Origin: Warburgia ugandensis | Taxonomy: Eukaryota; Streptophyta; Magnoliopsida; Canellales; Canellaceae | Direction: 5' to 3' | Length of the DNA: 64,000 nucleotides | NCBI GenBank assembly: GCA_035236585.1 | Contig: CP141128.1 | Coordinates: 25,387,618 to 25,451,617, forward strand | Shown here: positions 23,685-64,000 of the stretch, piece by piece | Layout of the letters: every line of letters starts with the position of its first letter | How positions within the stretch are numbered: position 1 is the stretch's first letter | Notes under the pieces: generated by a model | The model's input: only the letters and a program-made list of their open reading frames with translations | Database searches by the model: none | Told to the model about the DNA's origin: nothing | Made by a program: the position numbers and the translations under genes

Positions 23685-24483
23685 CCTCAAAGTCAAGCCT
23701 ATTTTGGTACTTAAGAATGAAAAAAAACAAAGAAAGCTCAGGGGTCCATTTTGATAATGGAAGCACTCGTTGGTGTAATAACCATTAGACATTACTCAGA
23801 AAATCAAATTCAATGAGTGAAAGAATGTTGAAAATAGTGTCTGTATGAAGAACTTATGGGACTCAAAGTCAGGGCTATTTCTGTAATTAAAAGTTAAAGA
23901 AAAAGGTAGAAACCTCAGCGAGCCATATTGGTAATGGCGGGGTTCGCTGGAGTAACAACCTTAAAATTTTCTATTCCATGATCAGTTTACGAGTTTTTCA
24001 GAAGTATATCTTTTAATAGCAAAATTATTTAGAACTAAAACTAAAACCATTAGATAGTACTCATGAAATGGAATTCAACAACAAAAGAATGCAGAAAATA
24101 GATTATGTATGAAGAAGTTATGGGACAACAAAGTCAAGGTTATTATGATAATTAAAAGAGAAAAAAAAAACGTAAAAACCTTATGTGGTCATTCTGATAA
24201 TGGCGAGGCTCGCTGGCGCAACAACCTTAAAATTTTACTATTCAATGATCAATTTACGACTTTTCAAGAAGTACAACTTTTCATAGGAAAATTATTTAGA
24301 ACTAAAACAGAAACCATTAGATAGTACTAAGATAATCGAATTCAATGAGCGAAAGAATGCTGAAAATAGAGTCCGTATGAAGAAGTTGTGGGACCACAAA
24401 ATCAGGGCTATCTCATTAATTAAAATTGAGAAAAAAAAATAGAAACCATAGGGTGCCATTTTGATAATGGCGGGGCTCGTTGG

Positions 24484-24660
24484 TGTAATGACCATTAGTT
24501 GGTACTCAGAAAATAGAATTCAACGAGGGAAAGAATGCTGAAAATAGTCTCCGTGTGAAGAAGTTATGGGACCTCAAAGTCAGGGCTAATTCGGTACTTA
24601 AAAGTGAGAAAAAACAAAGAAACCTCAGGAGTCCATTTTGCTAATGGCAGCGCTCGCTGG
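24484..24660 (+). repeat. Example short satellite monomer (177 bp)
   Basis: It starts TGTAATGACCATTAG and runs to the next start at TGCAATATCCATTAG. The TGTAAC-like start is joined directly to CCATTAG, without the ~88-bp block found in long monomers. Confidence 0.8.
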
Positions 24661-25251
24661 TGCAATATCCATTAGATATTACTCAGAAAATCAAATTGAA
24701 TGAGCGAAAGAATGCTGAAAATAGTGTACGTATGAAGAACTTATGGGACCTAAAAGTCAGGGCTACTTCTGTAATTAAAAGTTAAAGAAAAATGCAGAAA
24801 CCTCAGGGAGCCATTTTGATAACGAAAGGGCTCCCTGGTGTAACAACCTTAAAATTTTACTATTCCATAATCAGTTTTTGAGTTTTCAAGAACTCAAATA
24901 GAAACCATTGGATATTAATCAGAAAATGGCAATCAACGAGCGAAAGAACTCTGAAAATAGAGTCGGTATGAAGAAGTTGTAGGACCTCAAAGTCAAGGCT
25001 ATTTCAGTATTTAAAAGTAAAAAAAAAAATAGAAACCTCAAGTGTCCATTTTGATAATGGCGGGGCTCGCTGCTGTAACAACCACGAGACGATACTCAGA
25101 AAATCAAATTCAACACGCAAAAGAATGCTCAAAATAGAGTCTGTATGAAGAAGTTATGGGACCTCAAAATAAGAGCTATTTTTGTATTTAAAAGTTAAAG
25201 AAAAACATAGCTACCTCAAGGAGCCATATTGGTAATGGCGGGGTTCGCTAG

Positions 25252-25519
25252 TGTAACAACCTTAAAATTTTCTATTCCATGATCGGTTTCCGAGTTTTCA
25301 AGAAGTATTTCTTTTAATAGGAAAATTATTTGGAACCAAAACTAAAACCATTAGATAGTAGTCAGGAAATGGAATTCAACAAGTGAAAGAATGCAGAAAA
25401 TAGATTCCGTATGAAGAAGTTATGGAACAATAAAGCCAGGGTTATTATGATATTTAACAGAGAAAAAAAAAAACAAAGAAAACTTAGGTGGTCATTTTGA
25501 TAATGGCAGGGCTCACTGG
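25252..25519 (+). repeat. Example long satellite monomer (268 bp)
   Basis: It starts TGTAACAACCTTAAAATTTT and includes ATAGGAAAATTATTT, ACCATTAGATAGTAGTC, CGTATGAAGAAGTTATGG (25,408-25,425) and TTTTGATAATGGC, ending before the next GCAACAACC. It corresponds to LTR bases 1 to about 300, with a shorter gap after the first 60 bp. Confidence 0.78.
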
Positions 25520-28500
25520 GGCAACAACCTTAAAATTTTACTATTCAATGATCAATTTACGAGTTTTCAAGAAGTATATCTTTTCGTAGGAAAATTATTT
25601 AGAAGTAAAACAAAAACCATTGCGTAGTACTAAGATAATGGAATTCAGTGAGCGAAAGAATGCTGAAAATAGAAACCATAGGGGGCCATTTTGATAATGG
25701 CGGGGCTCATTGGTGTAACAACCATTAGTTGTTACTCAAAAAATAGGATTCAACGAGGGAAACAATGCTGAAAATAGACTCCGTGTGAAGAAGTTATGGG
25801 ACCTGAAAGTTAGGGCTATTTCGGTACTTAAGAATGAAAAAAAAAAGTAACCTTAGTGGTCCACTTTGATAATGGAAGCGCTCACTGGTGTAATAACCAT
25901 TAGATATTACTCCGAAAATTAAATTCAATGAGCGAAAGAATGCTAAAAATAGTGTCTGTATGAAGAACCTATGGGACTCAAAATCAAGGCAATTTCTGTA
26001 AGTAAAAGTTAAACGAAAAGGTAGAAACCTCAGGGAGCCATATTGGTAATGGCGTCGTTCACTGGAGTAACAACCTTAAAATTTTCTATTCCATGATCAG
26101 TTTACGAGTTTTTAAGAAGTATATCTTTTAATAGGAAAATTATTTGAACTAAAACTAAAACCATTAGATAGTACTCAGGAAATGGAATTCAACGAGCGAA
26201 TGGATGCAGAAAATAGATTCCGTATGAGGAAGTTATGGGAAAACAAAGTCAGGGTTATTATGATAACTAAAAGAGAAAAAAAATAATAATAAGGAAACCT
26301 TAGGTTGCCATTTTGATAATGGCGGGGCTCGCTGGGGCAACAACCTTAAAATTTAACTATTCAATGATCAATTTATGAGTTTTCAAGAAGTATATCTTTT
26401 CATAGGAAAATTATTTAGAACTAAAACAGAAACCATTGGATAGTACTAAGATAATGGAATTCAATGAGGGAAGGAATGCTAAAAATAGATTCCGTATGAA
26501 GAAGTTGTGGAATCTCAAAATCAAGGCTATCTCATTAATTAAAATTGAAAAAAAAAAAAATAGAAACCATAGGGGGCCATTTTGATAATGGCAGGGCTCG
26601 TTGGTGTAACAACCATTAGTTGTTACTCAAAAAATAGGATTCAGTGAGGGAAACAATGCTGAAAATAGACTCCGTGTGAAGAAGTTATGGGACCTCAAAG
26701 TCAGGGCTATTTCGGTACTTAAGAATGAAAAAAAACAAAGAAAGCTCAGGGGTCCATTTTGATAATGGAAGCACTCGTTGGTGTAATAACCATTAGACAT
26801 TACTCAGAAAATCAAATTCAATGAGTGAAAGAATGTTGAAAATAGTGTCTGTATGAAGAACTTATGGGACTCAAAGTCAGGGCTATTTCTGTAATTAAAA
26901 GTTAAAGAAAAAGGTAGAAACCTCAGCGAGCCATATTGGTAATGGCGGGGTTCGCTGGAGTAACAACCTTAAAATTTTCTATTCCATGATCAGTTTACGA
27001 GTTTTTCAGAAGTATATCTTTTAATAGCAAAATTATTTAGAACTAAAACTAAAACCATTAGATAGTACTCATGAAATGGAATTCAACAACAAAAGAATGC
27101 AGAAAATAGATTATGTATGAAGAAGTTATGGGACAACAAAGTCAAGGTTATTATGATAATTAAAAGAGAAAAAAAAAACGTAAAAACCTTATGTGGTCAT
27201 TCTGATAATGGCGAGGCTCGCTGGGGCAACAACCTTAAAATTTTACTATTCAATGATCAATTTACGACTTTTCAAGAAGTACAACTTTTCATAGGAAAAT
27301 TATTTAGAACTAAAACAGAAACCATTAGATAGTACTAAGATAATCGAATTCAATGAGCGAAAGAATGCTGAAAATAGAGTCCGTATGAAGAAGTTGTGGG
27401 ACCACAAAATCAGGGCTATCTCATTAATTAAAACTGAGAAAAAAAAATAGAAACCATAGGGTGCCATTTTGATAATGGCGGGGCTCGTTGGTGTAATGAC
27501 CATTAGTTGGTACTCAGAAAATAGAATTCAACGAGGGAAAGAATGCTGAAAATAGTCTCCGTGTGAAGAAGTTATGGGACCTCAAAGTCAGGGCTAATTC
27601 GGTACTTAAAAGTGAGAAAAAACAAAGAAACCTCAGGAGTCCATTTTGCTAATGGCAGCGCTCGCTGGTGCAATATCCATTAGATATTACTCAGAAAATC
27701 AAATTGAATGAGCGAAAGAATGCTGAAAATAGTGTACGTATGAAGAACTTATGGGACCTAAAAGTCAGGGCTACTTCTGTAATTAAAAGTTAAAGAAAAA
27801 TGTAGAAACCTCAGGGAGCCATTTTGATAACGACAGGGCTCCCTGGTGTAACAACCTTAAAATTTTACTATTCCATAATCAGTTTTTGAGTTTTCAAGAG
27901 CTCAAATAGAAACCATTGGATATTAATCAGAAAATGGAAATCAACGAGCGAAAGAACTCTGAAAATAGAGTCGGTATGAAGAAGTTGTAGGACCTCAAAG
28001 TCAAGGCTATTTGAGTATTTAAAAGTAAAAAAAAAAATAGAAACCTCAAGTGTCCATTTTGATAATGGCGGGGCTCGCTGCTGTAACAACCACGAGACAT
28101 TACTCAGAAAATCAAATTCAACACGCAAAAGAATGCTCAAAATAGAGTCTGTATGAAGAAGTTATGGGACCTCAAAATAAGAGCTATTTTTGTATTTAAA
28201 AGTTAAAGAAAAACATAGCTACCTCAGGGAGCCATATTGGTAATGGCGGGGTTCGCTAGTGTAACAACCTTAAAATTTTCTATTCCATGATCGGTTTCCG
28301 AGTTTTCAAGAAGTATTTCTTTTAATAGGAAAATTATTTGGAACCAAAACTAAAACCATTAGATAGTAGTCAGGAAATGGAATTCAACAAGTGAAAGAAT
28401 GCAGAAAATAGATTCCGTATGAAGAAGTTATGGAACAATAAAGTCAGGGTTATTATGATATTTAAAAGAGAAAAAAAAAAACAAAGAAAACTTAGGTGGT

Positions 28501-31500
28501 CATTTTGATAATGGCAGGGCTCACTGGGGCAACAACCTTAAAATTTTACTATTCAATGATCAATTTACGAGTTTTCAAGAAGTATATCTTTTCGTAGGAA
28601 AATTATTTAGAAGTAAAACAAAAACCATTGCGTAGTACTAAGATAATGGAATTCAGTGAACGAAAGAATGCTTAAAATAGAAACCATAGGGGGCCATTTT
28701 GATAATGGCGGGGCTCATTGGTGTAACAACCATTAGTTGTTACTCAAAAAATAGGATTCAACGAGGGAAACAATGCTGAAAATAGACTCCGTGTGAAGAA
28801 GTTATGGGACCTGAAAGTTAGGGCTATTTCGGTACTTAAGAATGAAAAAAAAAAGTAACCTTAGTGGTCCACTTTGATAATGGAAGCGCTCGCTGGTGTA
28901 ATAACCATTAGATATTACTCCGAAAATTAAATTCAATGAGCGAAAGAATGCTAAAAATAGTGTCTGTATGAAGAACCTATGGGACTCAAAATCAAGGCAA
29001 TTTCTGTAAGTAAAAGTTAAACGAAAAGGTAGAAACCTCAGGGAGCCATATTGGTAATGGCGTGGTTCACTGGAGTAACAACCTTAAAATTTTCTATTCC
29101 ATGATCAGTTTACGAGGTTTTAAGAAGTATATCTTTTAATTGGAAAATTATTCGAACTAAAACTAAAAGCATTAGAGAGTACTCAGGAAATGGAATTCAA
29201 CGAGCGAATGGATGCAGAAAATAGATTCCGTATGAGGAAGTTATGGGAAAACAAAGTCAGGGTTATTATGATAACTAAAAGAGAAAAAAAAAGAAAAAGG
29301 AAACCTTAGGTTGCCATTTTGATAATGGCGGGGCTCGCTGGGGCAACAACCTTAAAATTTAACTATTCAATGATCAATTTATGAGTTTTCAAGAAGTATA
29401 TCTTTTCATAGGAAAATAATTTAGAACTAAAACAGAAACCATTGGATAGTACTAAGATAATGGAATTCAATGAGGGAAGGAATCCTAAAAATAGATTCCG
29501 TATGAAGAAGTTGTGGAATCTCAAAATCAAGGCTATCTCATTAATTAAAACTGAAAAAAAAAAAAATAGAAACCATAGGGGGCCATTTTGATAATGGCAG
29601 GGCTCGTTGGTGTAACAACCATTAGTTGTTACTCAAAAAATAGTATTCAGTGAGGGAGACAATGGTGAAAATAGACTCCGTGTGAAGAAGTTATGGGACC
29701 TCAAAGTCAGGGCTATTTCGGTACTTAAGAATGAAGAAAAACAAAGAAACCTTAGGGGTCCATTTTGATAATGTAACCGCTCGCTAGTGTAATAACCATT
29801 AGACATTACACAGAAAATCAAATTCAATGAGGGAAAGAATGCTGAAAATAGTGTCTGTATGAAGAACTTATGGGACTCAAAGTCAGGGCTATTTCTGTAA
29901 TTAAAAGTTAAAGAAAAAGGTAGAAACCTCAGCGAGCCATATTGGTAATGGCGGGGTTCGCTGGAGTAACAACCTTAAAATTTTCTATTCCATGATCAGT
30001 TTACGAGTTTTTCAGAAGTATATCTTTTAATAGCAAAATTATTTAGAACTAAAACTAAAACCATTAGATAGTACTCATGAAATGGAATTCAACAACAAAA
30101 GAATGCAGAAAATAGATTATGTATGAAGAAGTTATGGGACAACAAAGTCAAGGTTATTATGATAATTAAAAGAGAAAAAAAAAACGTAAAAACCTTATGT
30201 GGTCATTCTGATAATGGCGAGGCTCGCTGGGGCAACAACCTTAAAATTTTACTATTCAATGATCAATTTACGACTTTTCAAGAAGTACAACTTTTCATAG
30301 GAAAATTATTTAGAACTAAAACAGAAACCATTAGATAGTACTAAGATAATCGAATTCAATGAGCGAAAGAATGCTGAAAATAGAGTCCGTATGAAGAAGT
30401 TGTGGGACCACAAAATCAGGGCTATCTCATTAATTAAAACTGAGAAAAAAAAATAGAAACCATAGGGTGCCATTTTGATAATGGCGGGGCTCGTTGGTGT
30501 AATGACCATTAGTTGGTACTCAGAAAATAGAATTCAACGAGGGAAAGAATGCTGAAAATAGTCTCCGTGTGAAGAAGTTATGGGACCTCAAAGTCAGGGC
30601 TAATTCGGTACTTAAAAGTGAGAAAAAACAAAGAAACCTCAGGAGTCCATTTTGCTAATGGCAGCGCTCGCTGGTGCAATATCCATTAGATATTACTCAG
30701 AAAATCAAATTGAATGAGCGAAAGAATGCTGAAAATAGTGTACGTATGAAGAACTTATGGGACCTAAAAGTCAGGGCTACTTCTGTAATTAAAAGTTAAA
30801 GAAAAATGTAGAAACCTCAGGGAGCCATTTTGATAACGACAGGGCTCCCTGGTGTAACAACCTTAAAATTTTACTATTCCATAATCAGTTTTTGAGTTTT
30901 CAAGAACTCAAATAGAAACCATTGGATATTAATCAGAAAATGGAAATCAACGAGCGAAAGAACTCTGAAAATAGAGTCGGCATGAAGAAGTTGTAGGACC
31001 TCAAAGTCAAGGCTATTTCAGTATTTAAAAGTAAAAAAAAAAATAGAAACCTCAAGTGTCCATTTTGATAATGGCGGGGCTCGCTGCTGTAACAACCACG
31101 AGACATTACTCAGAAAATCAAATTCAACACGCAAAAGAATGCTCAAAATAGAGTCTGTATGAAGAAGTTATGGGACCTCAAAATAAGAGCTATTTTTGTA
31201 TTTAAAAGTTAAAGAAAAACATAGCTACCTCAGGGAGCCATATTGGTAATGGCGGGGTTCGCTAGTGTAACAACCTTAAAATTTTCTATTCCATGATCGG
31301 TTTCCGAGTTTTCAAGAAGTATTTCTTTTAATAGGAAAATTATTTGGAACCAAAACTAAAACCATTAGATAGTAGTCAGGAAATGGAATTCAACAAGTGA
31401 AAGAATGCAGAAAATAGATTTCGTATGAAGAAGTTATGGAACAATAAAGTCAGGGTTATTATGATATTTAAAAGAGAAAAAAAAAACAAAGAAAACTTAG

Positions 31501-32391
31501 GTGGTCATTTTGATAATGGCAGGGCTCACTGGGGCAACAACCTTAAAATTTTACTATCCAATGATCAATTTACGAGTTTTCAAGAAGTATATCTTTTCGT
31601 AGGAAAATTATTTAGAAGTAAAACAAAAACCATTGCATAGTACTAAGATAATGGAATTCAGTGAACGAAAGAATGCTGAAAATAGAAACCATAGGGGGCC
31701 ATTTTGATAATGGCGGGGCTCATTGGTGTAACAACCATTAGTTGTTACTCAAAAAATAGGATTCAACGAGGGAAACAATGCTGAAAATAGACTCCGTGTG
31801 AAGAAGTTATGGGACCTGAAAGTTAGGGCTATTTCGGTACTTAAGAATGAAAAAAAAAAGTAACCTTAGTGGTCCACTTTGATAATGGAAGCGCTCGCTG
31901 GTGTAATAACCATTAGATATTACTCCGAAAATTAAATTCAATGAGCGAAAGAATGCTAAAAATAGTGTCTGTATGAAGAACCTATGGGACTCAAAATCAA
32001 GGCAATTTCTGTAAGTAAAAGTTAAACGAAAAGGTAGAAACCTCAGGGAGCCATATTGGTAATGGCGTGGTTCACTGGAGTAACAACCTTAAAATTTTCT
32101 ATTCCATGATCAGTTTACGAGTTTTTCAGAAGTATATCTTTTAATAGCAAAATTATTTAGAACTAAAACTAAAACCATTAGATAGTACTCATGAAATGGA
32201 ATTCAACAACAAAAGAATGCAGAAAATAGATTATGTATGAAGAAGTTATGGGACAACAAAGTCAAGGTTATTATGATAATTAAAAGCAAAAAAAAAACGT
32301 AAAAACCTTATGTGGTCATTCTGATAATGGCGAGGCTCGCTGGGACAACAACCTTAAAATTTTACTATTCAATGATCAATTTTTGACTTTT

Positions 32392-34397: not shown

Positions 34398-37300
34398 ATT
34401 TAGTACTTAAAAGTGAGAAAAAACAAAGAAACCTCAGGACTCCATTTTGATAATGGCAGCGCTCGCTGGTGCAATATCCATTAGATATAACTTGGAAAAT
34501 CAAATTCAATGAGCGAAAGAATGCTAAAAATAGAGTCTGTATGAAGAACTTATGGGACCTAAAAGTTAGGGCTATTTCTATAATTAAAAGTTAAAGAAAA
34601 ATGTGGAAACCTCAAGGAGCCATTTTGATAATGACAAGGCTCCCTGGTGTAACAACCTTATATTTTTACTATTCCATAATCAGTTTTTTAGTTTTCAAGA
34701 ACTTAAATAGAAACCTTTAGATATTAACCAGGAAATGGAAATCAACGAGCGAAAGAATACTGAAAATAGAGTCGGTATGAAGAAGTTCTGGGACCTCAAA
34801 TTCGAGGCTATTTTGGTATTTAAAAGTGAAAAAATATATTGAAAACTCAAGTGTCCATTTTGATAATGGCGGAGCTCTATGGTGTAACAACCACGAGACA
34901 TTACTCAGAAAATCAAATTCAATACACAAAACAATGCTCAAAATAGAGTCCGTATGAAGAAGTTATGGGACCTCAAAATAAGGTTAATTTCTTTAATTAA
35001 AAGTTAAAGAAAAACATAGAAATCACAGGGAGCCATATTGGTAATGCCGGGGTTCCCTGGTGTAACAACCTTAAGATTTTCTATTCCATGATCAATTTAT
35101 GAGTCGTCAAGAAGTACATCTTTTAACATTAAAATTATTTAGAACTAAAACTAAAACCATTAGATAGTACTCAGGAAATGGAATTCAACAAGAGAAAGAA
35201 TGCAGAAAATAGATTTCGTATGAAGAAGTTATGGGACAACAATGTCAGGGTTATTACAATAACTAAAAGAGAAAAAAAAACACAGAAACCTTATGTGGTC
35301 ATGTTGAAAATGGCGAGGCTCGCTGGGGCAACAACCTTAAAATTTTACTATTCAATGATCAATTTATGAGTTTTCAAGAAGTATATCTTTTCATCGAAAA
35401 ATTATTTAGAACTAAAACAGAAACCTTCGGATAGCGGGGCTCGTTGGTGTAACAACCATTAGTTATTACTCAGAAAATAGAATTCAACGAGGGAAAGAAT
35501 GCTGAAAATAGGCTCCGCGTGAAGAAGTTATGGGACCTCAAAGTGAGGGCTAATTCGGTACGTAAAAGTGAGAAAAAACAAAGAAACCTCAGGAGTCGAT
35601 TTTGATAATGGCAGCGCTCGCTAGTGCAATATCCATTAGATATAACTTAGAAAATCAAATTCAACGAGCGAAAGAATGCTAAAAATAGAGTCTGTATGAA
35701 GAACTTATGTGACGTAAAAGTTAGGGCTATTTCTGTAATTAAAAGTTAAAGAAAAATGTGTACACCTCAGGGAGCCATTTTGATAATGGCAGGGCTCCCT
35801 GGTGTAACAACCTTATATTTTTACTATTCCATAATTAGTTTTTGAGTTTTCAAGAACTCAAACAGAAACCTTTAGATATTAATCAGGAAATGGAAATCAA
35901 CGAGCAAAAGAATACTGAAAATAGAGTCGGTATGAAGAAATTATGGGACCTCAAATTCAAGGCTATTTCGGTATTTAAAAGTGATACAAAATATTGAAAG
36001 CTCAAGTTCCATTTTGATAATGGCAGGGCTCGCTGGTGTGACAACCATGATACATTACTCAAAAAATCAAATTCAACACGCAAAACAATGCTCAAAATAG
36101 AGTCAGTATGGAGAAGTTATGGGACCTCAAATTAAGGGCAATTTCTTTAATTAAAAGTTAAAAAAAAACATAGAAACCTCAGGGAGCCATATTGTTAATG
36201 GCGGGGTTCGCTGGTGTAACAACCTTCAAATTTTCTATTCCATGATTAGTTTACAAGTCTTCAAGAAGTACATCTTTTAATAGGAAAATTATTTAGAACT
36301 AAAATGAAAACCATTAGGTAGTACTCAAGAAATGGAATTCAACGAGCAAAAGAATGTAGAAAATAGATTCCATATGAAGAAGTTATGGGACAACAAAGTC
36401 AGGGTTATTATGATAATTAAAAGAGAAAAAAAAACATAGAAACCTTATCTGGTCATTTTGATAATGGCGAGGCTCGCTGGGGCAACAACCTTAAAATTTT
36501 ACTATTCAATGATCAATTTATGAGTTTTCAAGAAGTATATCTTTTCATCGAAAAATTATTTAGAACTAAAACAGAAACCTTCGGATAGCGGGGCTCGTTG
36601 GTGTAACAACCATTAGTTATTACTCAGAAAATAGAATTCAACGAGGGAAAGAATGCTGAAAATAGGCTCCGCGTGAAGAAGTTATGGGACCTCAAAGTGA
36701 GGGCTAATTCGGTACGTAAAAGTGAGAAAAAACAAAGAAACCTCAGGAGTCGATTTTGATAATGGCAGCGCTCGCTAGTGCAATATCCATTAGATATAAC
36801 TTAGAAAATCAAATTCAACGAGCGAAAGAATGCTAAAAATAGAGTCTGTATGAAGAACTTATGTGACGTAAAAGTTAGGGCTATTTCTGTAATTAAAAGT
36901 TAAAGAAAAATGTGTACACCTCAGGGAGCCATTTTGATAATGGCAGGGCTCCCTGGTGTAACAACCTTATATTTTTACTATTCCATAATTAGTTTTTGAG
37001 TTTTCAAGAACTCAAACAGAAACCTTTAGATATTAATCAGGAAATGGAAATCAACGAGCAAAAGAATACTGAAAATCGAGTCGGTATGAAGAAATTATGG
37101 GACCTCAAATTCAAGGCTATTTCGGTATTTAAAAGTGATACAAAATATTGAAAGCTCAAGTTCCATTTTGATAATGGCAGGGCTCGCTGGTGTGACAACC
37201 ATGATACATTACTCAAAAAATCAAATTCAACACGCAAAACAATGCTCAAAATAGAGTCAGTATGGAGAAGTTATGGGACCTCAAATTAAGGGCAATTTCT

Positions 37301-39348: not shown

Positions 39349-39489
39349 GATCTAGAATTATAAGAGTAAGAAGCTGTGGAACAACGACATACACTTAGTC
39401 AATGTTTTGTGAAGAAATGTTCACATGGAAGAAGAGACTTGGGAACTGGAGTCAGAAATGCGAGAAATTTGACTGAACACAGAAATTTG
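39349..39489 (+). other. Unassigned spacer between gag remnant and LTR
   Basis: About 140 bp of AG-rich sequence with no recognised motif, probably residual retroelement interior. The expected LTR start (TGTAAC) is not seen, so a deletion probably joined interior sequence to the U3 part of the LTR. Confidence 0.4.
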
Positions 39490-39784: not shown

Positions 39785-39800
39785 GCTCTATAAATAGAGC
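39785..39800 (+). promoter_or_regulatory. TATA box embedded in a perfect dyad
   Basis: GCTCTATAAATAGAGC: 7-bp inverted arms around AA, with TATAAATA at 39,789-39,796. It probably acts as the LTR promoter, given its position downstream of the U3 segment. Confidence 0.6.
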
Positions 39801-50451: not shown

Positions 50452-53130
50452 TGTGACAATCCGGGTTTTCACATGCATTTTTAAATGAAAAATCTAAATT
50501 CCTAAGGTGGGATCCCGATTTGAAAAACCATACAATGCAATGGAAAAATCTTTTTATTTTAAACTCATTTTGAAAACCCCGAGTGTCATTTGCTTTCACA
50601 ACAACCAAAGTAGTTTTTGAAAAATTTTAGAAATCATAAATGTTTTCCTAGGTCTATCCAGTCACAGCTCACAGCTCAACTGTAATTAAATGCAAATACA
50701 TGTCCAAAGGGTAGAGTGTTTACTTACATGTATAATTGTCTCCTTTTGATTTTTCTTACTCGTAGCACTAACATAGGTGTCCTTTACTCGTGAATGGAGC
50801 TATCCTGAAAAATGTTAAGGATAGGGTGAGTATATACTATACTCAGTAGGAGTCTATCACTACTAGTTTTACAATGCATGCTATGTTTAAAATCATATGC
50901 TCTTTAAAACATGTGCATGTTCGAAAAATCATGGTCAATATCAATATTAAAAACCACTGTCGAATTGAAATACTGATGACTTAAAGAAATAGCATAATCC
51001 AAGTCAAAAGTATCATATATCATAAACATAATGATATGTATAAGATGCTCTACTGAATCCAACTCATGGATATATGGTATGGTCGACCAAGCTCATGTCA
51101 TTGCATACGCAGTGCAAGTAAATCCTGAAACCATAGGGCCCAACTATGCCCACGACCTCGCCTCTGTGTGGTCCCCGGCTACCTAAGGACACAGCATCAT
51201 AGCCTCCACGGGGCATATGACACATCAACCCAGTGCCGTGACTTCAATGGTAACCCCTTGTACCACATGTAGTCGACGTAGGGACATGCCCTTTTTGGGC
51301 GTGGTACCCATTCCACCTAGTAGTGGTAGAGGCTGGGAGGCCACCCCAACCTCTCGGCATAGCACCTAGGAGCTTACTAGCCTAAATCATATACGATCAA
51401 ATAAGCAAAAATATCTCTTTTCAAAACCTGTCCTCTTTGGGTCCCTCACAACTGCCTGACACTCACAACTGCCTACCCAGCGTCTTTTGGGCACTCCAGC
51501 GTCTTTTAGTAACCCTCAAGGACATGCAATTTTTTTAAAAACTCAATGTTCACAAATCATGCAATATATGCAATTGCTTGTAAAACATGTCTATGCATAA
51601 TGTATTTGTCATATGCATGCTGAATTCATTTATAAGATTAAGTCATGCTAAAGAAGTCATATAACTTGTACTTAAAACATGCATTCAAAACAATCATGGC
51701 TCTTTCTAAAAGTCTAGTAGCAATAGAGCACCTACTCCAAAGTCTCCTCGAGTCGCGTCCTTTATCACTTCAACCCGTCCCTGGGTCTCATTTATGAACT
51801 CCTAGGTATGATTGGATATAAGGAGTCCTTATTAATTTTAATCCATTTAGACATTAAATCGCTAGATATGCCTTTTAGGGTCTATGGTCCTTGCCTAATT
51901 CATTGTTAGGCTAGATCCTATGATATGGATCTACTATAAAATAGTTAAATTCTGTAATTTGTCCTCTAATCCTAACTTTAAAGTGTTACTAAGTCTGCGT
52001 GTCCTAGTTCCCAGGACACCCGCGTATCCTGGTTGAACCGCGACCGCCTCATGTGCGTGTGCGCCCAAAGGCCGTGCCAAGGACCGCGTTTTGCAGGCAC
52101 ACATGCATGCTCAAGTGACGCGCCATGCCGCGCATCTTGGATGCCATCGCACGGACACACCTTTGGTTTATCATGGCACGTCTCAGCTCCCAGGGCACCC
52201 CGTGCATCCTGTTCGAGCCAAGACCCGTGTCCCGCGTCACGCGAGCACCCGAAGGCCGCACCAGGGACAGTGTATGCACTGTCGTATGCCTGGAACCCGT
52301 CCCAAGTGCAGGTGGAGCATGGCGTCCTTGGGACGCCTGGTTCGTACAAGGTCGGCTGAACCGGCTTGGAGCTTTTTTCAGCCAGGAAACCCAGCTGGAA
52401 AATGGCTGGGAAGAGACCAGATCCGGAATGCATCTTGGCCTGGGGGAAGCAAAACGGAGAGAAGGTAAGGAGGGGCTTACCTCGGTAGCCTGGGGACGCC
52501 CGTTTTCCCGATGGTGCGTTTACCTTTGCCGGAAACCTATGTTGTCGGAACCCACGAAGAAGGGGAAAACCTGAATGCCAAACCGGAAAGGAGAGGAGGG
52601 AAAATGGGGAGATGGGAAAAGGAATGGCCAGCCTGAATAGGGCCTAGCTTTTGTCAAAAAATGCAGAGGAGACTGGCTTGAGACGGGTTTCCGATTTTGC
52701 TGGAAACCCAGTCTCAAAATGGCCAAAAAATCGTGTTTTGGAGAGGGAGGAGATGGGGCTTTTTATAGCCCTGCTATGGTGGTGGCAGAAACCTCTGGAA
52801 ACGGGGTTTCTGGAGAGATTTGGAGGTGGAAGACGACAGGGGGTGCCATTATCAAAACGGCCCCCTGCGTTTTTCATTCTTTTTCGTTTTCTGTTTAATT
52901 TACAAAACTACCCCTGATCTTTAAATGACCATAACTTCTTCATATGAACTCTGTTTTCAGCATTCTTTGAGGCGTTGGATTCCATTTTTCAAGTAGAATT
53001 TAATGGTATCAAGTTTCCTCACAAATTCCTTCACTTACTATTTTAAATAAAGTAAAAAATTCAACACAGTTTATTTCCCATAAAATGTCTGACTTTTGTT
53101 AAAAATAACGTAAATTGCTTGAGCGTTACA
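50452..53130 (-). repeat. L3 3' LTR
   Basis: It starts TGTGACAATCCGGG and ends GAGCGTTACA on the plus strand. It holds a TATA-like box (complement 52,761-52,767), a possible leader donor (complement 52,479-52,480), a mini-exon at 50,728-50,804, and a satellite-like U3 segment about 52,850-53,130. The dyad here is GCCGTT-TTGAT-AATGGC on the sense strand, intermediate between the L2 LTR form and the satellite form. Confidence 0.9.
50728..50804 (-). promoter_or_regulatory. Splice-like mini-exon module in L3 3' LTR
   Basis: Sense-strand acceptor CCTTAACATTTTTCAG (complement ending 50,805) and donor GTAAGTAAAC (complement ending 50,727), 77 nt apart. In the L3 5' LTR the donor has changed to GCAAGAAAAC (complement near 56,930). 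Confidence 0.5.
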
Positions 53131-53150
53131 TTATTACCCCCTTAAAAGAA
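53131..53150 (-). other. Polypurine tract of L3
   Basis: The complement reads TTCTTTTAAGGGGGTAATAA next to the 3' LTR start, as in L1. Confidence 0.88.
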
Positions 53151-56100
53151 TTTCATCCTCGAAATTCCATAAATTATCATCTCCATGCTATTTTGTCTCT
53201 TAGATAACTTCTTAGTGAATGCATCCTCCCCTTTGGAATCACATCTAGGCTCAACCTTAATTTATCATTTTTATTTTTCCTTCTACAAGGCCTTACCTAT
53301 AAGGGCCACTTTCACTACGTACTCTGATGCATACTCCGATATGTGTCAGTTTAACAATACTAGTTTCTAGCTGTAATTCATCTATCTCAAAATCCTTAGA
53401 TGCCTATACTTTTCTCATCATGTATAGGATGGTCTCCTCGTAGGATCTTGCTTCTTCATGTATAAATTACTCCATACTTCTTTGAGATCATATGATCTTA
53501 TTTCTCCTATTTTGTTTTGAATATCATAGGATAATGCTTTTTCTTCTTGATCTCTTCATCATCCACATCTCCTTCTAATGGTTGGTTATATGTCAATGGT
53601 TATATGTCATTAGTAAGAGTCCAAAAATTTACCTTCTTTGTATTATGTCTAAGTTTGCTTCTTATCTTTTATATTTTTCCCCAAGATACTTCAATAACGG
53701 ATATGGTATCATGTGCTCTACAGGTAAACCCGTGATTAACTTCGAATTTCAACTATCTGTTCTTTTCCATATGTGACTTTATTCCTCGACCAAAGTTACA
53801 TTCAAATTAAAATCATGAAAGCCAATTAGTAGCATCTTCCATCAAGGACCTTATCATATACTGAAAGTAAAATGTCCTTACTCTATATCCAGTTTCATAA
53901 TTATTGAATTCATTAAACGCTTTTCTCATGTCAAATGTTAATGGTCGATTCGTCATCATGTGTCAAATGTTCTCGTCTAGAGGCCTTATCTCACTATTCA
54001 CATCAATTTGTCATTAGGATTTTCAATAATGTTCCCATTTATGCAAAGAAAAAAGTATCTTATTCATAACCGAGTACCCTTACTAGGTCATGGTTGACTC
54101 CTTTGTCATCATCCTCTTTGTCCTTTCTTTGCTTGATGGTTTTCTTCGTAACCTTTCAGTCCAAAAGTTCTATACTCAATCCAGTAGGGTTAGTCCTTAG
54201 GAAATTCCTTCAATTGATTTTTTCATACTTGGTATATGCTCATAACAACTAACTATTTGTCTAAAGGCAACGTAACATTAAATCTTCACCTTATAGTGTG
54301 CTAGCCATCTCACCTTTTCTCCTTCCATCCCCTATGTCAATATATTGTGTACTTTTTTATCAAGTCTTTATTGTCAATCATGCAGTCTGTATTGTCAGGA
54401 GGTATCCTCATAAGTAGTGATTTTCTCAATTCCTCAAGCTTTTATCCTTCAACTGCCTCCTCATACTTAGCTTGCAATAGCAGTTCTTGTTCAATAGCTA
54501 TAACATCAAGTTATGCTGAAGCTGTTAAATCATCAAATTTGAAAAACACTCAGGTAAGCATGGAACATTTTTGTAGACACATAGAAAAACATTATTTGAT
54601 TACCTATTGGTCTCTTTCCAAATATATTTTCGTCATAAGCTCAAGGGTCTCTAAAGTGTCTGTACTTATCTACCTTTCTTTTCAATCCAAGTCAGCAGCA
54701 TTTTTCAAACCCATAGTGATTTCTATGGTTTGTCATGGTATCTATTCAGGTTTGGAAAAATTTGTCTCACTGGTGGAGATTGCTCCTTATTTTCGCTTCT
54801 GTTTAAGTTGTTACTGTATTTATTGTACTCGTAGCTCCTACATGATGTGGCCTAATCAACTGACCTCATACCCTTAAATGCCTTAGTCTAACAAGTACTT
54901 CTTTCACAGAAAACTCAAGTGTAAAGACTTATAACATCCCTCTGAGTATATAACTTCAACTTCTAACTCATAGATACTAACATACTTGATTAATTAGGGT
55001 GGGGTACCTTTATTTAGTCAACAATACTCTAAAGGTAATGACTAAATAATGGTCTTAAAATTTCTGGTCTTTTAATCCATGATAGTAAGACCTCAATTTG
55101 ATCCTTGATGGTACCCTACTTGCTAAATGGACAAGTCACTGTTCTCGGCTTAATTCCTTTTTCAATATACTTTATTAGCAAGGTGGGATATCACCAAATT
55201 TTCCTTTTTATGGACTATATTTATTGGTGTTCCTCATAAGCTACTGGATCCGATAAGAATCTAATTACAATAATTAATATAGACATCACACTATTTGTAG
55301 AATTTAATTTCTAGTTGGTCACCATTCCTCTTCGAAGTTTCTTGTCGCATAATCTCCTAATATTCGATACTCCACTCAAAGTCTTAAACCCCATATGCTT
55401 CCTCTTTTTATACTCTTTTACAATAAGATCACCAACTCATCTAGTATTATTCCGTTGCATTTGTTTGATTTACCTTCCTATCGGATTCAAGATGATAGAA
55501 TTGTATGTATCTCCATAAAGTCATGATCTTCTTCTTTTGAATATTCAATATTCATTGAATACTGGTAGTTACATCTCTATCTCTTTCTTTCTTTCCTTCA
55601 AAATCCTTATTTTTGCCTACCTATATTAATGTCTTCATGTGCTTTGTTGCATATAATCGATACTGCATCTACTCCCTTACTTAACAGATATGATAAACTA
55701 AATGCTTCTAAGAAATTCTAAACTGTCTTAAGATCATTGAAATCCTCAATTGCCTATATCCTTAATAAAATTCATATAATGTCTTAAGAATGGCATTGAC
55801 ATTTTGATCATGCTATACTTTTCTTACAAGTTCATGTTAGGATCAATCTATTATCATCCTTAGTATTATCATCAAAATCTTTTGATAACTTGGTCGAATT
55901 CATTTCCCTATCATATTCGTGTTATGTTTCTTTTAATCACATAATATGTCACTTGTATACATCTTCTGATTTGCTCCATAATACTCAGGTAGTTAATATC
56001 ATTTCACTCTTCATGAGACTCCAATTAAGGTATCCAAAATTGAGCTAAGTCTTTCAGGATCCATACCTTTGTGATCTAGTACGAGCCACAATTATTTCCT

Positions 56101-56638
56101 AATATTATCTTGCATTCTCATCCCTCTTAAATTGTCATCAAAATCTTCTCAAAGTCTGTCTTTTACATCCCTTATCATACTCATGTCATATCCCTTGTGA
56201 TAGTGTGCTCATATTCTGATATTCTTTATGATGGTAAGATAGCCGTCTAGGTTTTTCGATATTCTCACCTTTGATGAGATTACTTTATTGCAGGTCAGAT
56301 CTATCTGCTAACAAGTCCACTAACAGCCTCATTCCTCATTCTCATAATATGATCCATATATGAGTTTTTTATATTTGCACCATACAACAATCGTTGATCC
56401 TTAAGTTGTCTTAGACTAGATTTTGGATAAGGGTTGCACTATCCTTTACCTAATTATTTGTTAAACCAAGCTATATTTCACCTATTTATTTATGGTGAAC
56501 TGTCTTGTGCATTAATATTGTAATCCTCAAATAGAAGTAGTCATCTCTACTACTCCTATTTATACTACTTCTCCTTGATTTTCCCTATTGTCTATGACCC
56601 TTAAACATGCTGGACTAGCTGTGAAAGGATAAAACCTA

Positions 56639-56652
56639 GGCTCTGATACCAA
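56639..56652 (-). other. Primer binding site of L3 (initiator tRNA-Met type)
   Basis: The complement reads TTGGTATCAGAGCC, one base from the 5' LTR end. Confidence 0.92.
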
Positions 56653-56653
56653 C

Positions 56654-59336
56654 TGTGACGACTTGGGTTTTCACATGCATTTTTCAATGAAAAATCTAAA
56701 TTCCTAAGGTGGGATCCCGATTTGAAAAACCATACAATGCAATGGAAAAATATTTTTATTTTAAACTCATTTTGAAAACCCCGAGTGTCATTTGCTTTCA
56801 CAACAACCAAAGTAGTTTTTGAAAAACTTCAAAAATCGTAATTATTTTCCCAAGTCTATCCAGTCACAGCTCACAGCCCAACTGTAATTAAATGCAAATA
56901 CATGTCCAAAGGGTAGACTGTTTTCTTGCATGTATAATTGTCTCCTTTTGATTTTTCTTACTCGTAGCACTAACATAGGTGTCCTTTACTCGTGAATGGA
57001 ACTATCCTGAAAAATGTGAAGGATAGGGTGAGTATATACTATACTCAGTAGGAGTCTATCACTACTAGTTTTACAATGCATGCTATGTTTAAAATCATAT
57101 GCTCTTTAAAACATGTGCATTTTCGAACAATCATGGTCAATATCGATATTAAAAACCACTGTTGAGTTGGAATAGTAACGACTTAAAGAAATAGCATAAT
57201 CCAAGTCGAAAGTATCATATATCATAAACATAATGATATGTATATGATGCTCCACTGAATCCAACTCATGGACATATGGTATGGTCGACCAAGATCATGT
57301 CATGCCATATGTAGTGCAAGTAAATCTTGAAACCATAGGGCCCAACTGTGCCCATGACCTCGCCGCCGTGTGGTCCCCGGATACCTGAGGACATAGTGTT
57401 ATAGCCTCCACGGGGCATATGACACATCGACCCAATGCCGTGACATCAGTGGTAGCCCCCTATACCACATGCAGTCGACTTAGGGACATGCCCTTTTGGG
57501 GCGTGGTACCCATTCCACCTAGTAGTGGTAGAGGCTAGGAGGCCACCCCAACCTCTTGGCATAGTGCCCATGAGCTTACAAGCCCAAATCATATACGATC
57601 AAGCAAGCAAAAACATCTCTTTTCAAAACTTGTCCACTTTGGGTTCCTCACAACTGCCAGCCCAGCGTCTTTTGGTAACCCTCAAGGACATGCAAATTTT
57701 TAAGAACTCAATGTTCACAAATCATGCAATATATGCAATTGCCTGTAAAACATGTCTATGCATAATGTATTTGTCATATGCATGCTGAATTCGATTATAA
57801 GACTAAGTCATGCTAAACAAGTCATATAACTTATACTTAAAACATGCATTCAAAACAATCATGGCTCTTTTTAAAAGTCTTGTAGCGATAGAGCACCTAC
57901 TTCGAAGTCTCCTGGAGTCGCGTCCTTTATCACTTCAACCTATCCCTAGGTCTCATTTATGAACTCCTAGGTATGAATGGATACAAGGAGTCCTTATTAA
58001 TTTTAATCCATTTAGACATTAGATCGCTAGATATGCCTTTTAGGGTCTATGGTCCTTGCCTAATTCATTGTCAGGCTAGATCCTACGATATGGATCTACT
58101 ATAAAATAGTTAAGTTTTATAATTTGTCCTCTGATCCTAACTTTAAAGTCTTATTAGTTCCGTGTGTCCCAGTTCCCAGGACACCCGTGTATCCTCGTTG
58201 AACCGCGACCACCTCACGTGCATGCGCACCCAAAGGACGTACCAAGGACCTCGTTTTGCATGCGCACATGCATGCTCAAGCGATGCGCAATGCCTCGCAT
58301 CCTGGATGGCATTGCATGGATGCACCTTTGGTGTATCACGGCACGTCTCAACTCCCAGGGCACCCTGTGCATCCTAGTCGAGCCAGCACCCGTGCCCCGC
58401 ATCGCACGCGCACTGGAAGGCCGCACCAAGTACAGTGTATGCACTGTCATATGCCTGGAACCCATCCCTGGGACCCAATCCTAGGTGTAGGTGGAGCATG
58501 GCGTCCTTGGGATACTTGGTTCGTACAAGGCCGGCTGAACCGGCTTGAAGCGTTTTCTGGCTAGGAAACCCGGCCGGAAAATGGCTAGGAAGAGACCAGA
58601 TCTGGCATGGATCTTGGCCTGGGGGAAGCAAAATGGAGAGAAGGTAAGGAGGGGCTTACTTGGGTAGCCTAGGGGTGCTCTTTTTCCTGGTAGTGCGTTT
58701 CCCTCTGCCGGAAACGCATGTTGTCGGAACCCACGAAGAGGGGGAAAACCCCAATGCCAGATCGAAAAGGAGAGGAGGGAAATGGGGAGACGGGAAAAGG
58801 AATGGCCGGCCTGATTAGGGCCTGGCCGTCACCAAAAAATTCAGAAGAGACTAGCTCAAGACGGGTTTCCGATTTTGCCAGAAACCGCAGTCTCAAAATG
58901 GCCGGAAAATCGTGTCTTGGAGAGGGGGGAGATGGAGCTTTTTATAGCCCTGTTATGGTGGTGCTGCCAATGGCACTGCTGCCATTGGGGTGGCAGAAAC
59001 CTCTGGAAATGGAGATTTTGGAGAGATCTGGAGGTGGAAGACATACGGGGTGCCATTAACAAAACGGCCCTTGCATTTTTTGCTCTTCTTTGCTTTTTGT
59101 TTAATTTACAAAAATACCCCCGATCTTTAAACGGCCGTAACTTCTTCATATGAACTCTGTTTTCGGCGTTCTTTGAGGCGTTGGATTCTATTTTTTGAAT
59201 AGAATCTAATGGTACTAAGGTTCCTCAAAAATTCCTTCATTTACTATTTTAAATAATGTAAAATATTCAACATAGTTTATTTCCCATAAAATGTCCAATT
59301 TTTATTAAAAATAGTGTAAATTGCTTGGGCGTTACA
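56654..59336 (-). repeat. L3 5' LTR
   Basis: It starts TGTGACGACTTGGG and ends GGGCGTTACA on the plus strand. It contains a TATA-like box (complement 58,940-58,946), a possible leader donor (complement 58,658-58,659), and a satellite-like U3 segment about 59,050-59,336. Full length, so L3 has a complete promoter LTR. Confidence 0.9.
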
Positions 59337-62300
59337 TTTCAAGAAGTATATCTTTTCATAGCAAAATTATTTAGAACTAAAACAGAAACCATTGGATAAT
59401 ACTAAGAAAATGGAATTCAATCAACGAAAGAATGATGAAAATAGAGTCCCTATGAAGAAATTGAGGGACCTCAAAATCAGGGCCATCTTATTAATTAAAA
59501 GTGAAAAAAAAAAAATAGAAACGATAGGTGACCATTTTGATAATGGCGGGGCTCATTGGTGTAACAACCATTAGTTGTTACTCAGAAAATAGAATTCAAC
59601 GAGGGAAAGAATGCTGAAAGTAGGCTCCGTGTGAAGAAGTTATGGGACCTCAAAGTTAGGACTAATTCGGTACTTAAAAGTGAGACAAAACAAAGAAACC
59701 TCAGGAGTCCATTTTGATAATGGCAGCATTCCCTGGTGCAATATCCATTAGATATTACTCAGAAAATCAAGTTCAACACGCAAAAGAATGCTCAAAATAG
59801 AGTCCTTATGAAGAAGTTATGGGACCCCAAAATAAGAGCAATTTCTGTAATTAAAAGTTAAAGAAAAACGTAGAAACCTCAGGGAGCCATATTGGTAATG
59901 GCGGGGTTCGCTGGTGTAACAACCTTAAAATTTTCTATTCCATGATCAGTTTACGAGTTTTCAAGAAAAATATCTTTTAATAGGAAAATTATTTAGAACT
60001 AAAAGTAAAACCATTAGATAGTACTCAGGAAATGGAATTCAACGAGCCAAAGAATGCAAAAAATAAATTTTGTATGAAGAAGTTATGGGACAACAAAGTC
60101 AGTGTTATTATGATAATTAAAAGAGAAAAAAAAAACTTAGAAACCTTATGTGGTCATTTTGATAATGGTGGGCCTCGTTGGGGCAACAACCTTAAAATTT
60201 TACTATTCAATGATCAATTCACGAGTTTCAAGAAGTATATCTTTTCATAGGAAAATTATTTAGAACTAAAATAGAAACCATTGGATAGTACAAAGATAAT
60301 GGAATTCAATGGGCGAAAGAATGCTGAAAATAGAGTCCGTATGAAGAAGTTGTGGGACCTCAAAATCACGGCTATCTTATTAATTAAAATTGAAAAAAAA
60401 ACATAGAAACCATACGGGGCCATTTTGATAATGGCAAGGTCGTTGGTGTAACAACCATTAGTTCTCACTCAAAAAATTGGATTCAACGGGGGAAAGAGTG
60501 TTGAAAATAGACTCCGTGTGAAGAAGTTATGGGACCTCAAAGTCAGGGCTACTTCGGTACTTAAAAGTGAAAAAAAACAAAGAAACCTCAGGAGTCCATT
60601 TTGATAATGGCAGTGCTCGCTGGTGCAATATTCATTAGATATTACGTAGAAAATCAAATTCAAGAAGCAAAAGAATGCTAAAAATAGAGTTCGTATGAAG
60701 AAGTTATGGGACCTCAAAATAAGGGTTATTTCTGTAATTAAAAGTCAAAGAAAAATGTAGAAACCTCAGGTAGCCATTTTGATAATGACATGGCTCCCTG
60801 GTGTAACAACCTTAAAATTTTACTATTCCATAATCAGTTTTTGAGTTTTAAGAACTCAAACAGAAACCATTAGATATTAATCAAGGAATGGAAATCAACG
60901 AGCGAAAGAATGCTGAAAATAGAGTCGGTATGAAGAAGTTATGGGACCTCAAAGTCAAGGCTATTTCAGTATTTAAAAGTGGAAAAAAACATAGAAACCT
61001 CAAGTGTCCATTTTGATAATGGCAGGGCTCGCTAGCGTAACAACCACGAGACATTACTCAGAAAATCAAATTCAACACGCAAAAGAATGCTCAAAATCGA
61101 GTCCATATGAAGAAGTTATGAGACCTCAAAATAAGAGCTATTTCTATATTTAAAAGTGAAAGGAAAACATAGAAACCTAAGGGAGCCATATTGGTAATGG
61201 TGAGGTTAGCTGGTGTAACAACCTTAAAATTTTCTATTCCATGATCAGTGTACGAGTTTTCAAGAAGTATATCTTCTAGTAGGAAAATTATTAAGAACTA
61301 AAACTAAAACCATTAGATAGTACTCAGGAAATGGAATTCAACGAGCCAAAGAATACAGAAAATAGATTTTGTATGAAGAAGTTATGGGACAACAAAGTCA
61401 GTCTTAGCATGATAATTAAAAGAGAAAAAAAAAATAGAAAGCTTATGCGATCATTTTTATAATGGCGAGGCTTGCTGGGGCAACAACCTAAAAATTTTAC
61501 TATTCAATGATCAATTTATGAGTTTTCAAGAAGTATAACTTTTCATAGCAAAATTATTTAGAACTAAAAGAGAAAAAATTTGATAGTACTAAGAAAATTG
61601 AATTAAATTAGCGAAAGAATGCTGAAAATAGAGTCCGTATGAAAAAGTTGTGGGACCTCAAAATCAGAGCTATCTCATTAAGTAAAACTGAGAAAAAAAA
61701 AACATAGAGAAGCCATAGGGGGCCATTTTTTATAATGGCGGGCCTCGTTGGTGTAACAACCATTAGTTGTTACTTAGAAAATAGAATTGAACGAAGGAAA
61801 GAATGCTGAAAATAGGCTTCGTGTGAAGAAGTTATGGGACCTCAAAGTCAGGGCTAATTCGGTACTTAAGAGTGAGAAAAAACAAAGAAACTTGAGGAGT
61901 CCATATTGATAATGGCAACACTCGCTGGTGCAATATCCATTAGATATTACTGAGAAAAGCAAATTCAACGAGCGAAAGAATGCTGAAAATAGAGTCTGTA
62001 TGAAGAACTTATGGGACTCAAAGTCAAGGCTATTTCTGTAATTAAAAGTTAAAGAAAAAGGAAGAAACCTCAGGGAGCCATATTGGTAATGGTGGGGTTC
62101 GCTGGTGTAACAACCTTAAAATTTTCTATTCCATGATCAGCATATGAGTTTTCAAGAAGAATATCTTTTAATAGGAAAATTATTTAGAACTAAAACTAAA
62201 ACCATTAGATAGTACTTAGGAAATGAAATTCAACGAGCCAAAGAACGCAGAAAATAGATTTTGTATGAAGAAGTTATGGGATAACAAAGTTAGTGTTATT

Positions 62301-64000
62301 ATGATAATTAAAAGAGAAAAAAAAAGCTTAGAAACCTTATGTGGTGATTTTGATATTGGTGGGCCTCGCTGGGGCAACAACCTTAAAATTTTACTATTCA
62401 ATGATCAATTCACGAGTTACAAGAAGTATATCTTTTCATAGGAAAATTATTTAGAACTAAAATAGAAACCATTGGATAGTACAAAGATAATGGAATTCAA
62501 TGGGCGGAAGAATGATGAAAATAGAGTCCGTATGAAGAAGTTGTGGGACTTCAAAATCACAGCTATCTCATTAATTAAAACTGAAAAAAAAAACATAGAA
62601 ACCATACGGGGCCATTTTGATAATGGCAAGGTCGTTGGTGTAACAACCATTAGTTGTCACTCAAAAAATTGGATTCGACGAGGGAAAGAGTGCTGAAAAC
62701 AGACTCCGTGTGAAGAAGTTATGGGACCTCAAAGTCAGGGCTATTTTGGTACTTAAGAATGAAAAAAAACAAAGAAACCTCAGGGGTCCATTTTGATAAT
62801 GGAAGCGCTCGCTGGTGTAATAACCATTAGATATTACTCGGAAAATCAAATTCAATGATGGAAAGAATGCTGAAAATAGTGTCTATATGAAGAACTTATG
62901 GGACTCAAAGTCAGGGCTATTTCTGTAATTACAAGTTAACGAAAAAGGTAGAAACCTTAGGGAGCCATATTGGTAATGGGGAGGTTCGCTGCAGAAAATA
63001 GATTCTGTATGAAGAAGTTATGGAACAACAAAGTCAGGGTTATTACGATAATTAAAAGAGAAAAAAAAACAAAGAAACCTTAGGTGGTCATTTTGATAAT
63101 GGTGGGGCTCGCTGGGGTAACAACCTTAAAATTTTACTATTCAATGATCAATTTATGAGTTTTCAAGAAGTATAACTTTTCATAGCAAAATTATTTAGAA
63201 CTAAAAGAGAAACAATTGGATAGTACTAAGAAAACTAAATTAAATTAGCGAAAGAATGCTGAAAATAGAGTCCGTATGAAAAAGTTGTGGGACATCAAAA
63301 TCAGGGCTATCTCATTAAGTAAAACTGAGAAAAAAAAAAAAAGAGAAGCCATAGGGGGCCATTTTTTATAATGGCGAGCCTCGTTGGTGTAACAACCATT
63401 AGTTGTTACTTAGAAAATAGAATTGAACGAAGGAAAGAGTGCTGAAAATAGGCTTCGTGTGAAGAAGTTATGGGACCTCAAAGTCAGGGCTAATTCGGTA
63501 CTTAAGAGTGAGAAAAAACAAAGAAACCTGAGGAGTCCATATTGATAATGGCAGCACTCGCTGGTGCAATATCCATTAGATATTACTGAGAAAAGAAAAT
63601 TCAACGAGCGAAAGAATGCTGAAAATAGAGTCTGTATGAAGAACTTATGGGACTCAAAGTCAAGGCTATTTCTGTAATTAAAAGTTAAAGTAAAAGGAAG
63701 AAACCTCAGGGAGCCATATTGGTAATGGTGGGGTTCACTGGTGTAACAACCTTAAAAGTTTCTATTCCATGATCAGTTTATGAGTTTTCAAGGAGAATAT
63801 CTTTTAATAGGAAAATTATTTAGAACTAAAACTAAAACCATTAGATAGTACTTAGGAAATGAAATTCAACGAGCCAAAGAACGCAGAAAATAGATTTTGT
63901 ATGAAGAAGTTATGGGATAACAAAGTTAGTGTTATTATGATAATTAAAAGAGAAAAAAAAAAGCTTAGAAACCTTATGTGGTGATTTTGATATTGGTGGG
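59337..64000 (+). repeat. Satellite block 4, ~2,191-bp higher-order repeat, continues past window
   Basis: It resumes at TTTCAAGAAGTATATC, the monomer position interrupted by L3. The variant landmark GAGCCAAAGAA occurs at 60,044, 62,235 and 63,871. The first interval is 2,191 bp. The second is 1,636 bp because about 555 bp were deleted near 62,991 (GGTTCGCT|GCAGAAAAT). Monomers are of the same size classes as elsewhere. The array runs to the window end. Open frames of 60-82 codons recur with the unit. Confidence 0.9.

Follow-up and report, generated by a model that had tools for sequence, protein, structure and literature searches.

What is the source of a plant satellite whose interrupting retrotransposons carry a similar sequence at one of their own ends? 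The question is raised by a 64,000-bp stretch of the Warburgia ugandensis genome (hereafter the window; C3:25,387,618-25,451,617, in an assembly of 1.12 Gb and 14 contigs), in which four blocks of satellite lie among retrotransposons with long terminal repeats (LTRs), most of them of one "main" family and one of a related "sister" family. The satellite is very likely LTR-derived: an LTR copy of a related lineage would have undergone a tandem duplication of about 268 bp, the duplicated unit would have been amplified on C3 and C7, and the arrays would later have been re-invaded. Core homology, deletion forms, array structure, dispersal of the LTRs and nesting of LTRs in the arrays are all observed. 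The initial annotation of this DNA had proposed descent from a segment of the U3 (unique 3') region of an LTR, and that proposal is well supported, given that the homologous block occupies the same U3 slot in two dispersed LTR families, that the satellite forms one clade, and that a corresponding U3 layout recurs at 240 genome places.

Satellite arrays and their shared core with LTR U3

Searching the window by nhmmer with one 267-bp monomer as query gave 133 matches, 128 in the satellite blocks and five in LTR U3 regions (the latter with E values of 3e-11 to 7e-16). The blocks, at about 23684-32391, 34400-39083, 42051-50451 and 59338-64000, are head-to-tail arrays, the fourth of which continues beyond the window end. 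All 128 satellite matches are on the plus strand, in agreement with the earlier claim that every block has the orientation of a plus-strand LTR; this uniformity holds within the window, and minus-strand satellite exists nearby at about C3:25,304,652-25,307,972. Units fall into 42 long (~265 bp), 14 middle (~233 bp), 59 short (~177 bp) and 13 partial matches, a representative long monomer being that at 24216-24482 (plus strand, 267 bp). Block 1 is organized as a higher-order repeat of about 3007 bp, with copies that begin near 23780, 26788 and 29794 and are 98.8 and 99.5% identical, and in block 3 the unit order is short, long, long, short, short, middle. Examination of a wider 261.6 kb revealed one satellite run of about 60.4 kb starting at C3:25,322,502; the run of matches there measures 60.7 kb, and its final ~280 bp are an LTR head rather than satellite.

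Five main-family LTRs, all those in the window that keep the relevant part of U3, match the short-monomer consensus at LTR positions 123-287, with 70.9-76.8% identity and scores of 65-84. In 300 shuffles of the consensus the mean score was about 13 and the maximum 22, and the reverse complement scored 11-17. The shared stretch, of about 165 bp, contains the blocks ACCATTAGAT..TACTC, GGATTCCAAC, CGTATGAAGAAGTTA, TCAGGG and TTTTGATAAYGGC in identical order in monomers and LTRs. Because the consensus scores far exceed both controls, the series of blocks from ACCATTAGAT to TTTTGATAAYGGC that the initial annotation had listed is real and in order, and homology of unit and LTR goes beyond chance for this core. 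The notion that there is no common origin, and that the likeness consists of short AT-rich chance matches, is refuted for the core by the same numbers; it could hold just for the monomer's 5' third, and as an account of the satellite its probability is practically nil.

The likeness extends to the sister family, whose LTR in the window had likewise been said to carry these blocks, correctly so: it aligns to the short-monomer consensus with 63.6% identity and a score of 37 (highest shuffle score, 21). Sister and main LTRs have the U3 block in common (E 5e-20) and hold it in the same slot, and they also have about 1 kb of sequence in common further down the LTR (70% identity, E 3e-144). The U3 ends that carry the block in the window are those of the 3' LTR of the element termed L2 (12887-13171, plus strand, starting TGCAACGCCC, with the satellite-shared part at 13006-13171), of two minus-strand LTRs (2774-3059, shared part 2774-2949; and 21865-22155, shared part 21865-22041), and of the 3' and 5' LTRs of a satellite-nested minus-strand element (52837-53130 and 59051-59336, both nhmmer matches).

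The repeat unit and its 5' third

Outside the window, arrays at C3:53.94, 54.00 and 54.09 Mb and at C7:55.47 Mb consist of units of about 257-272 bp, the exceptions being two of 240 and 245 bp at C3:53.94 and those truncated at the edges of a stretch. In the window, 58 of the 59 short units carry the junction AACAACC|ATTAG (with up to three mismatches), as expected of a long unit that has lost about 90 bp between two AACC motifs; the short monomer at 24491-24658 (plus strand, in a ~177-bp period) is an example. Other deletion forms, of about 175 and about 211 bp, are found at C3:34.14 Mb. Since long-unit arrays exist elsewhere and the short forms are long units with deletions, the unit of about 268 bp is most likely ancestral. 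In layout it consists of 12 bp and a stretch of 256 bp that runs from TGTAACAACC to TTTTGATAATGGC.

This layout suggests how the satellite may have begun. The donor LTR would have belonged to a lineage akin to the main window family and would have had the 5' terminus TGTAACAACC. The tandemly duplicated segment of about 268 bp would have joined some 12 bp (RGGGCTCGCTGG), possibly flanking sequence, to the LTR from its position 1 to the end of the U3 anchor TTTTGATAATGGC (256 bp); a source of the 12-bp joint was looked for and not found. Amplification, either by unequal exchange or through circular intermediates, would have produced the arrays now found at several C3 loci and on C7, after which each locus would have evolved units of its own; in the window, the ~90-bp deletion between the AACC motifs would have given rise to the 177-bp units and to mixed higher-order repeats. 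Later still, LTR elements of related families would have inserted into the arrays. We infer the direction of these changes, the donor head, the duplication step and the means of amplification.

The trimming differs between loci, with the 5' part lost from the 177-bp units in and near the window and the 3' part lost from the ~175-bp form at C3:34.14 Mb, which was seen a few times in 6 kb. It is a speculative and unlikely reading of these forms that a U3 promoter fragment is turning into a centromere-type satellite in real time, its 268-bp unit having been shortened at two loci in separate events until it roughly matched a nucleosome repeat in length, and having then entered higher-order repeats, with relatives of the parent still inserting.

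The 5' third, or head, of the monomer is the part for which descent from an LTR is most in question. Long monomers had been described as beginning GAYCAATTTACG, like the start of the LTR. This motif (with at most one mismatch) is present in 28 of the 42 long monomers of the window and absent from all 91 at five other loci, where 84 have a GATCAGGTYATGAG-like sequence; the likeness is therefore local, and the description does not carry over to the satellite at large. Furthermore, several results weigh against an LTR origin of the head. The first ~96 bp of the monomer are not consistently above shuffles when compared with the heads of main, sister, solo-LTR or AACC-type LTRs. Against main heads (16 of 27, the others having failed a start filter, and eight per run) the mean z per locus was -0.9 to 0.9 in local and 0.4 to 1.7 in global alignment, and against sister heads P was 0.02 to 0.63. 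Against the head of a solo LTR of another family, in a comparison that began two bases inside that LTR, P was 0.01 to 0.52, with 5 of 10 tests (five monomers, two modes) at or below 0.05. When 38 of 40 long monomers were compared with AACC-type heads lacking their first 10 bp (36 of the 44 listed on C1 and C2, eight TGTAATAACC heads of C2 having been left out), subgroup A gave a mean z of 0.9 to 2.2 and subgroups B and C about 0 or lower, the subgroups being defined by our own motif rule. Sister and main heads, for their part, matched each other with P <= 0.01 in 3 of 4 global and 0 of 4 local tests. Of 54 LTR-end comparisons made alongside those with the solo-LTR head, 3 gave P <= 0.02. In several of the head and middle comparisons (main with sister, pattern-found heads, AACC-type heads, and the middles of 12 copies considered below) the main copies used were just those stored from their first base. 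The outcome for the head is lack of support, not disproof.

What ties the head to an LTR is its terminus and the distance from that terminus to the U3 anchor. The pattern TGTAAYAACC followed after 215-245 bp by TTGATAAYGGCAC, approximately the spacing in the monomer, occurs at 240 genome places (the 100 listed are on C1-C5) and at none in reversed controls, and a narrower pattern, GTAACAACCTTA with the U3 anchor GATAAYGGCACC at monomer spacing, occurs at three places (control 0). When these three were fetched with their flanks, the upstream sequences differed and the sequences agreed from TGTAACAACC onward, and because of this the pattern-found places, including the 240, look like LTR heads, as judged from sequence. 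Among 20,000 shuffled monomer heads, TGTAAYAACC was present in four and the general LTR form TGTAAYNNCY in 54. Within the arrays, anchor and terminus motif are an LTR distance apart in 13 of 20 cases at C3:54.09, 7 of 15 at C7:55.47, 7 of 12 at C3:53.94 and both cases at C3:54.00 (29/49).

Other observations on the terminus pull the opposite way. It is at LTR distance for 0 of 18 anchors at C3:34.14, where units start TGTAACAATC, and for 6 of 63 in two window stretches, which are rich in short units. As a plain 12-mer, TGTAACAACC is no closer to the main LTR start than chance would have it (P 0.37-0.99 in six arrays), so that its weight comes from the spacing. Three pattern-found LTR heads without their selected ends are not close to the satellite, with a mean z of 0.7 (local) and 1.2 (global) against 40 monomers, although one such pair with ends kept scored 39, the shuffle maximum being 24.

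These opposing results bear on an alternative in which only the ~165-bp core comes from U3, the other ~100 bp being unrelated neighbouring DNA and TGTAACAACC a chance motif. The failure of the monomer head to rise consistently above shuffles with any tested LTR group speaks for it, as does the restriction of GATCAATTTACG to the window. It is nevertheless rather unlikely: TGTAACAACC is placed where LTR ends seem to be at 240 genome places that share the U3 anchor, the motif is rare among shuffled heads, AACC-type subgroup A heads have raised mean z values at every locus, and half of the solo-LTR tests reach P <= 0.05.

Direction of descent

Shared sequence could have passed from LTR to satellite or from satellite to LTR, and genome distribution bears on the choice. 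Scored copies of the main LTR lie on C1-C10 and C12 (40 scored of 7308 first-look candidates) and those of the sister LTR on C1-C13 (40 scored of 4061). The satellite junction motif, with up to two mismatches, occurs at 810 places and at none in controls; the 100 places listed, every one of the 13 exact matches among them, fall on C3 (25.3, 34.1 and 53.9-54.1 Mb) or C7 (55.4 Mb), with one-mismatch places listed as far as within C3 and other contigs excluded for exact matches only. The layout of terminus plus anchor also appears to have the greater age. In 12 of its copies, picked by hand, the middles are only z 1-2 above shuffles in comparison with main, sister and satellite sequences, whereas core distances between satellite loci are 0.16-0.28; on this sequence evidence the layout looks older than the satellite. 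For the same reason, that their middles rise just z 1-2 above shuffles, AACC-type LTRs were rejected as a root for the tree.

Mean core distances are 0.347 between main and sister, 0.31-0.34 between main and satellite, and 0.43-0.47 between sister-type and satellite, in a sample of 22 of the 115 classed window units and six units from each of five other loci. In the corresponding tree (80 rows, 165 columns) all satellite rows sampled group together with support of 100/100 and are closer to main than to sister LTRs; with the root on the sister family the satellite falls inside the main family. The initial annotation had looked to nesting of monomers within LTR diversity; a single clade related to the main family is what is found, but its nesting in that family is unsupported.

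That shortfall is one of several findings that count against the proposed descent. Forcing the main family together costs 3.9 log units, with p = 0.363 in the approximately unbiased (AU) test, and no outgroup roots the tree reliably. LTRs bearing internal tandem U3 copies, to which the initial annotation had also pointed, did not appear: the exact pattern TATGAAGAAGTTACGG twice with a gap of 262-292 gave 0 genome matches, in a search that misses diverged copies and those with other spacing. A search by exact pattern for LTRs that begin TGTAACAACCTTAAAA after a polypurine tract likewise gave 0 matches.

The unrooted tree alone is compatible with the reverse course, in which satellite was taken up into the 5' end of an ancestral LTR and then spread with it, and captures of this kind are reported, the TCAST and pDv cases being examples (PMC3648361). 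Here, however, capture would have to have involved the very terminus of the LTR, and to have preceded the split of main and sister families. The satellite loci differ less from one another (0.16-0.28) than main differs from sister (0.347), although concerted evolution could have the same effect; the terminus-plus-anchor layout occurs in LTR-like places that have diverged almost beyond recognition; and listed satellite places (100 of 810, with other contigs excluded for exact matches only) are confined to C3 and C7, against scored LTR copies on C1-C13. Capture is thus highly improbable. Descent of satellite from LTR is much likelier, because the scored LTR copies are dispersed over C1-C13 and the U3 layout looks older.

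LTR elements in and near the arrays

The two LTRs of the element at 50452-59336 (minus strand) share 90.5% identity (K = 0.104). Next to the element the satellite continues in phase, and insertion therefore took place into satellite that was already there; no clean 5-bp target-site duplication is visible. The initial annotation held that the satellite had served as target for its own descendants. LTRs did insert into pre-existing satellite, as this element demonstrates, so that part of the statement holds; the insertions are relatives of the donor and may or may not descend from it. The LTR insertions at 32391 (where a fragment starts at 32392) and 50451 lie at the same monomer position and may be copies of one insertion.

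The LTR elements of the window bear structural marks of Ty3/gypsy elements: ends of the form TGTAAC...GTCGTCACA, AAGGGGG before LTR starts, and a primer site, TGGTATCAGAGC, near 9577, which we take to fit initiator tRNA-Met. No sense open reading frame of at least 70 amino acids, as would be expected of pol domains, was found in the main-family internal region 9571-12886 (~3.3 kb); with its primer site and no such frame, this element resembles a large retrotransposon derivative. The sister-family LTR (39463-42050, plus strand) has lost its 5' end, retains the U3 block at 39502-39686 and ends GTCGTCACA. A zinc-knuckle piece lies upstream of it at 39081-39293. The initial annotation spoke of chromovirus families; by eye, a chromodomain-like tail may be present in 39370-39630, and Pfam found no family in that single piece. 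To the right of the window, at 50-80 kb, are frames for protease (25.502 Mb), gag (25.514), reverse transcriptase with RNase H (25.524) and integrase (25.525). The reverse transcriptase frame is closest to Ty3; the integrase frame has a zinc-binding domain above the curated cut-off and a core domain just below it, and is followed by a sister-type LTR head.

A solo LTR of another family occupies 15804-20520 (TGTAATAACCCC...GTCATCACA, with target-site duplication GGTAA). A single 69-bp stretch of it matches the main U3 (E 5e-6); it was not used as an outgroup, its first 795 bp not being significant against monomers. Satellite and LTR also meet elsewhere on C3. At 25,487,986-25,488,520 a single monomer stands directly upstream of, and in tandem with, an LTR head, the joint TGG|TGTAACGCC being that found between monomers; this may be a product of insertion or of recombination. 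One satellite-LTR joint is present twice, at 25,291,510 (plus) and, turned the other way, at 25,316,390 (minus), pointing to an inverted duplication. The LTRs at 25,297,477 (plus) and 25,310,596 (minus) combine a main-like first ~65 bp with a sister-like core, as if heads had been exchanged. In viral contigs, U3 patterns gave nine stretches in one search and none in another; with a best E of 0.036 (one query checked), the nine were taken as chance matches and not as homologues.

Known parallels and meaning

Satellites with LTR relationships have been described before. Sobo of wild potato, a pericentromeric block, resembles the present satellite in its similarity to the LTRs of a gypsy-type element, Sore1; it differs in having a 4.7-kb monomer of mixed origin on one chromosome, where here a unit of about 268 bp stems from the U3 end only and occupies several loci on two chromosomes (PMC3648361, PMC9659126). 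The maize repeats CRM1TR and CRM4TR likewise arose from the LTR region of Ty3/gypsy elements, and their islands are also separated by LTRs that inserted later, but they span the LTR-UTR (untranslated region) junction of centromeric elements, and here the unit lies at the opposite (U3) end, in a family that may or may not be centromeric (PMC3648361). RPCS of rodents, with a 348-bp monomer that has identity to retroviral U3, shares the U3 relationship, in that case with an animal retroviral LTR (PMC3648361). In Tat-lineage elements, satellites of the PisTR-A type come from tandem repeats of the 3' UTR, again a non-coding source in plant Ty3/gypsy elements; there the element itself carries the tandem repeats, whereas here the one exact tandem-U3 LTR pattern gave no match (PMC3648361, PMC9659126). 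Among the papers listed in literature searches none describes this satellite, as judged by titles and abstract openings, and no paper containing the monomer words was found. The satellite adds a clear further case to a class that already includes Sobo and CRM1TR.

A single assembly thus holds many layers of the process: dispersed LTR candidates (thousands, at first look), arrays of the ancestral unit, shortened forms, higher-order repeats and re-invasion by LTRs. With so many layers together, the steps by which a transposon became satellite, and their order, can be put to the test. Conserved U3 anchors can, moreover, reveal the origin of a satellite after its remaining sequence has drifted.

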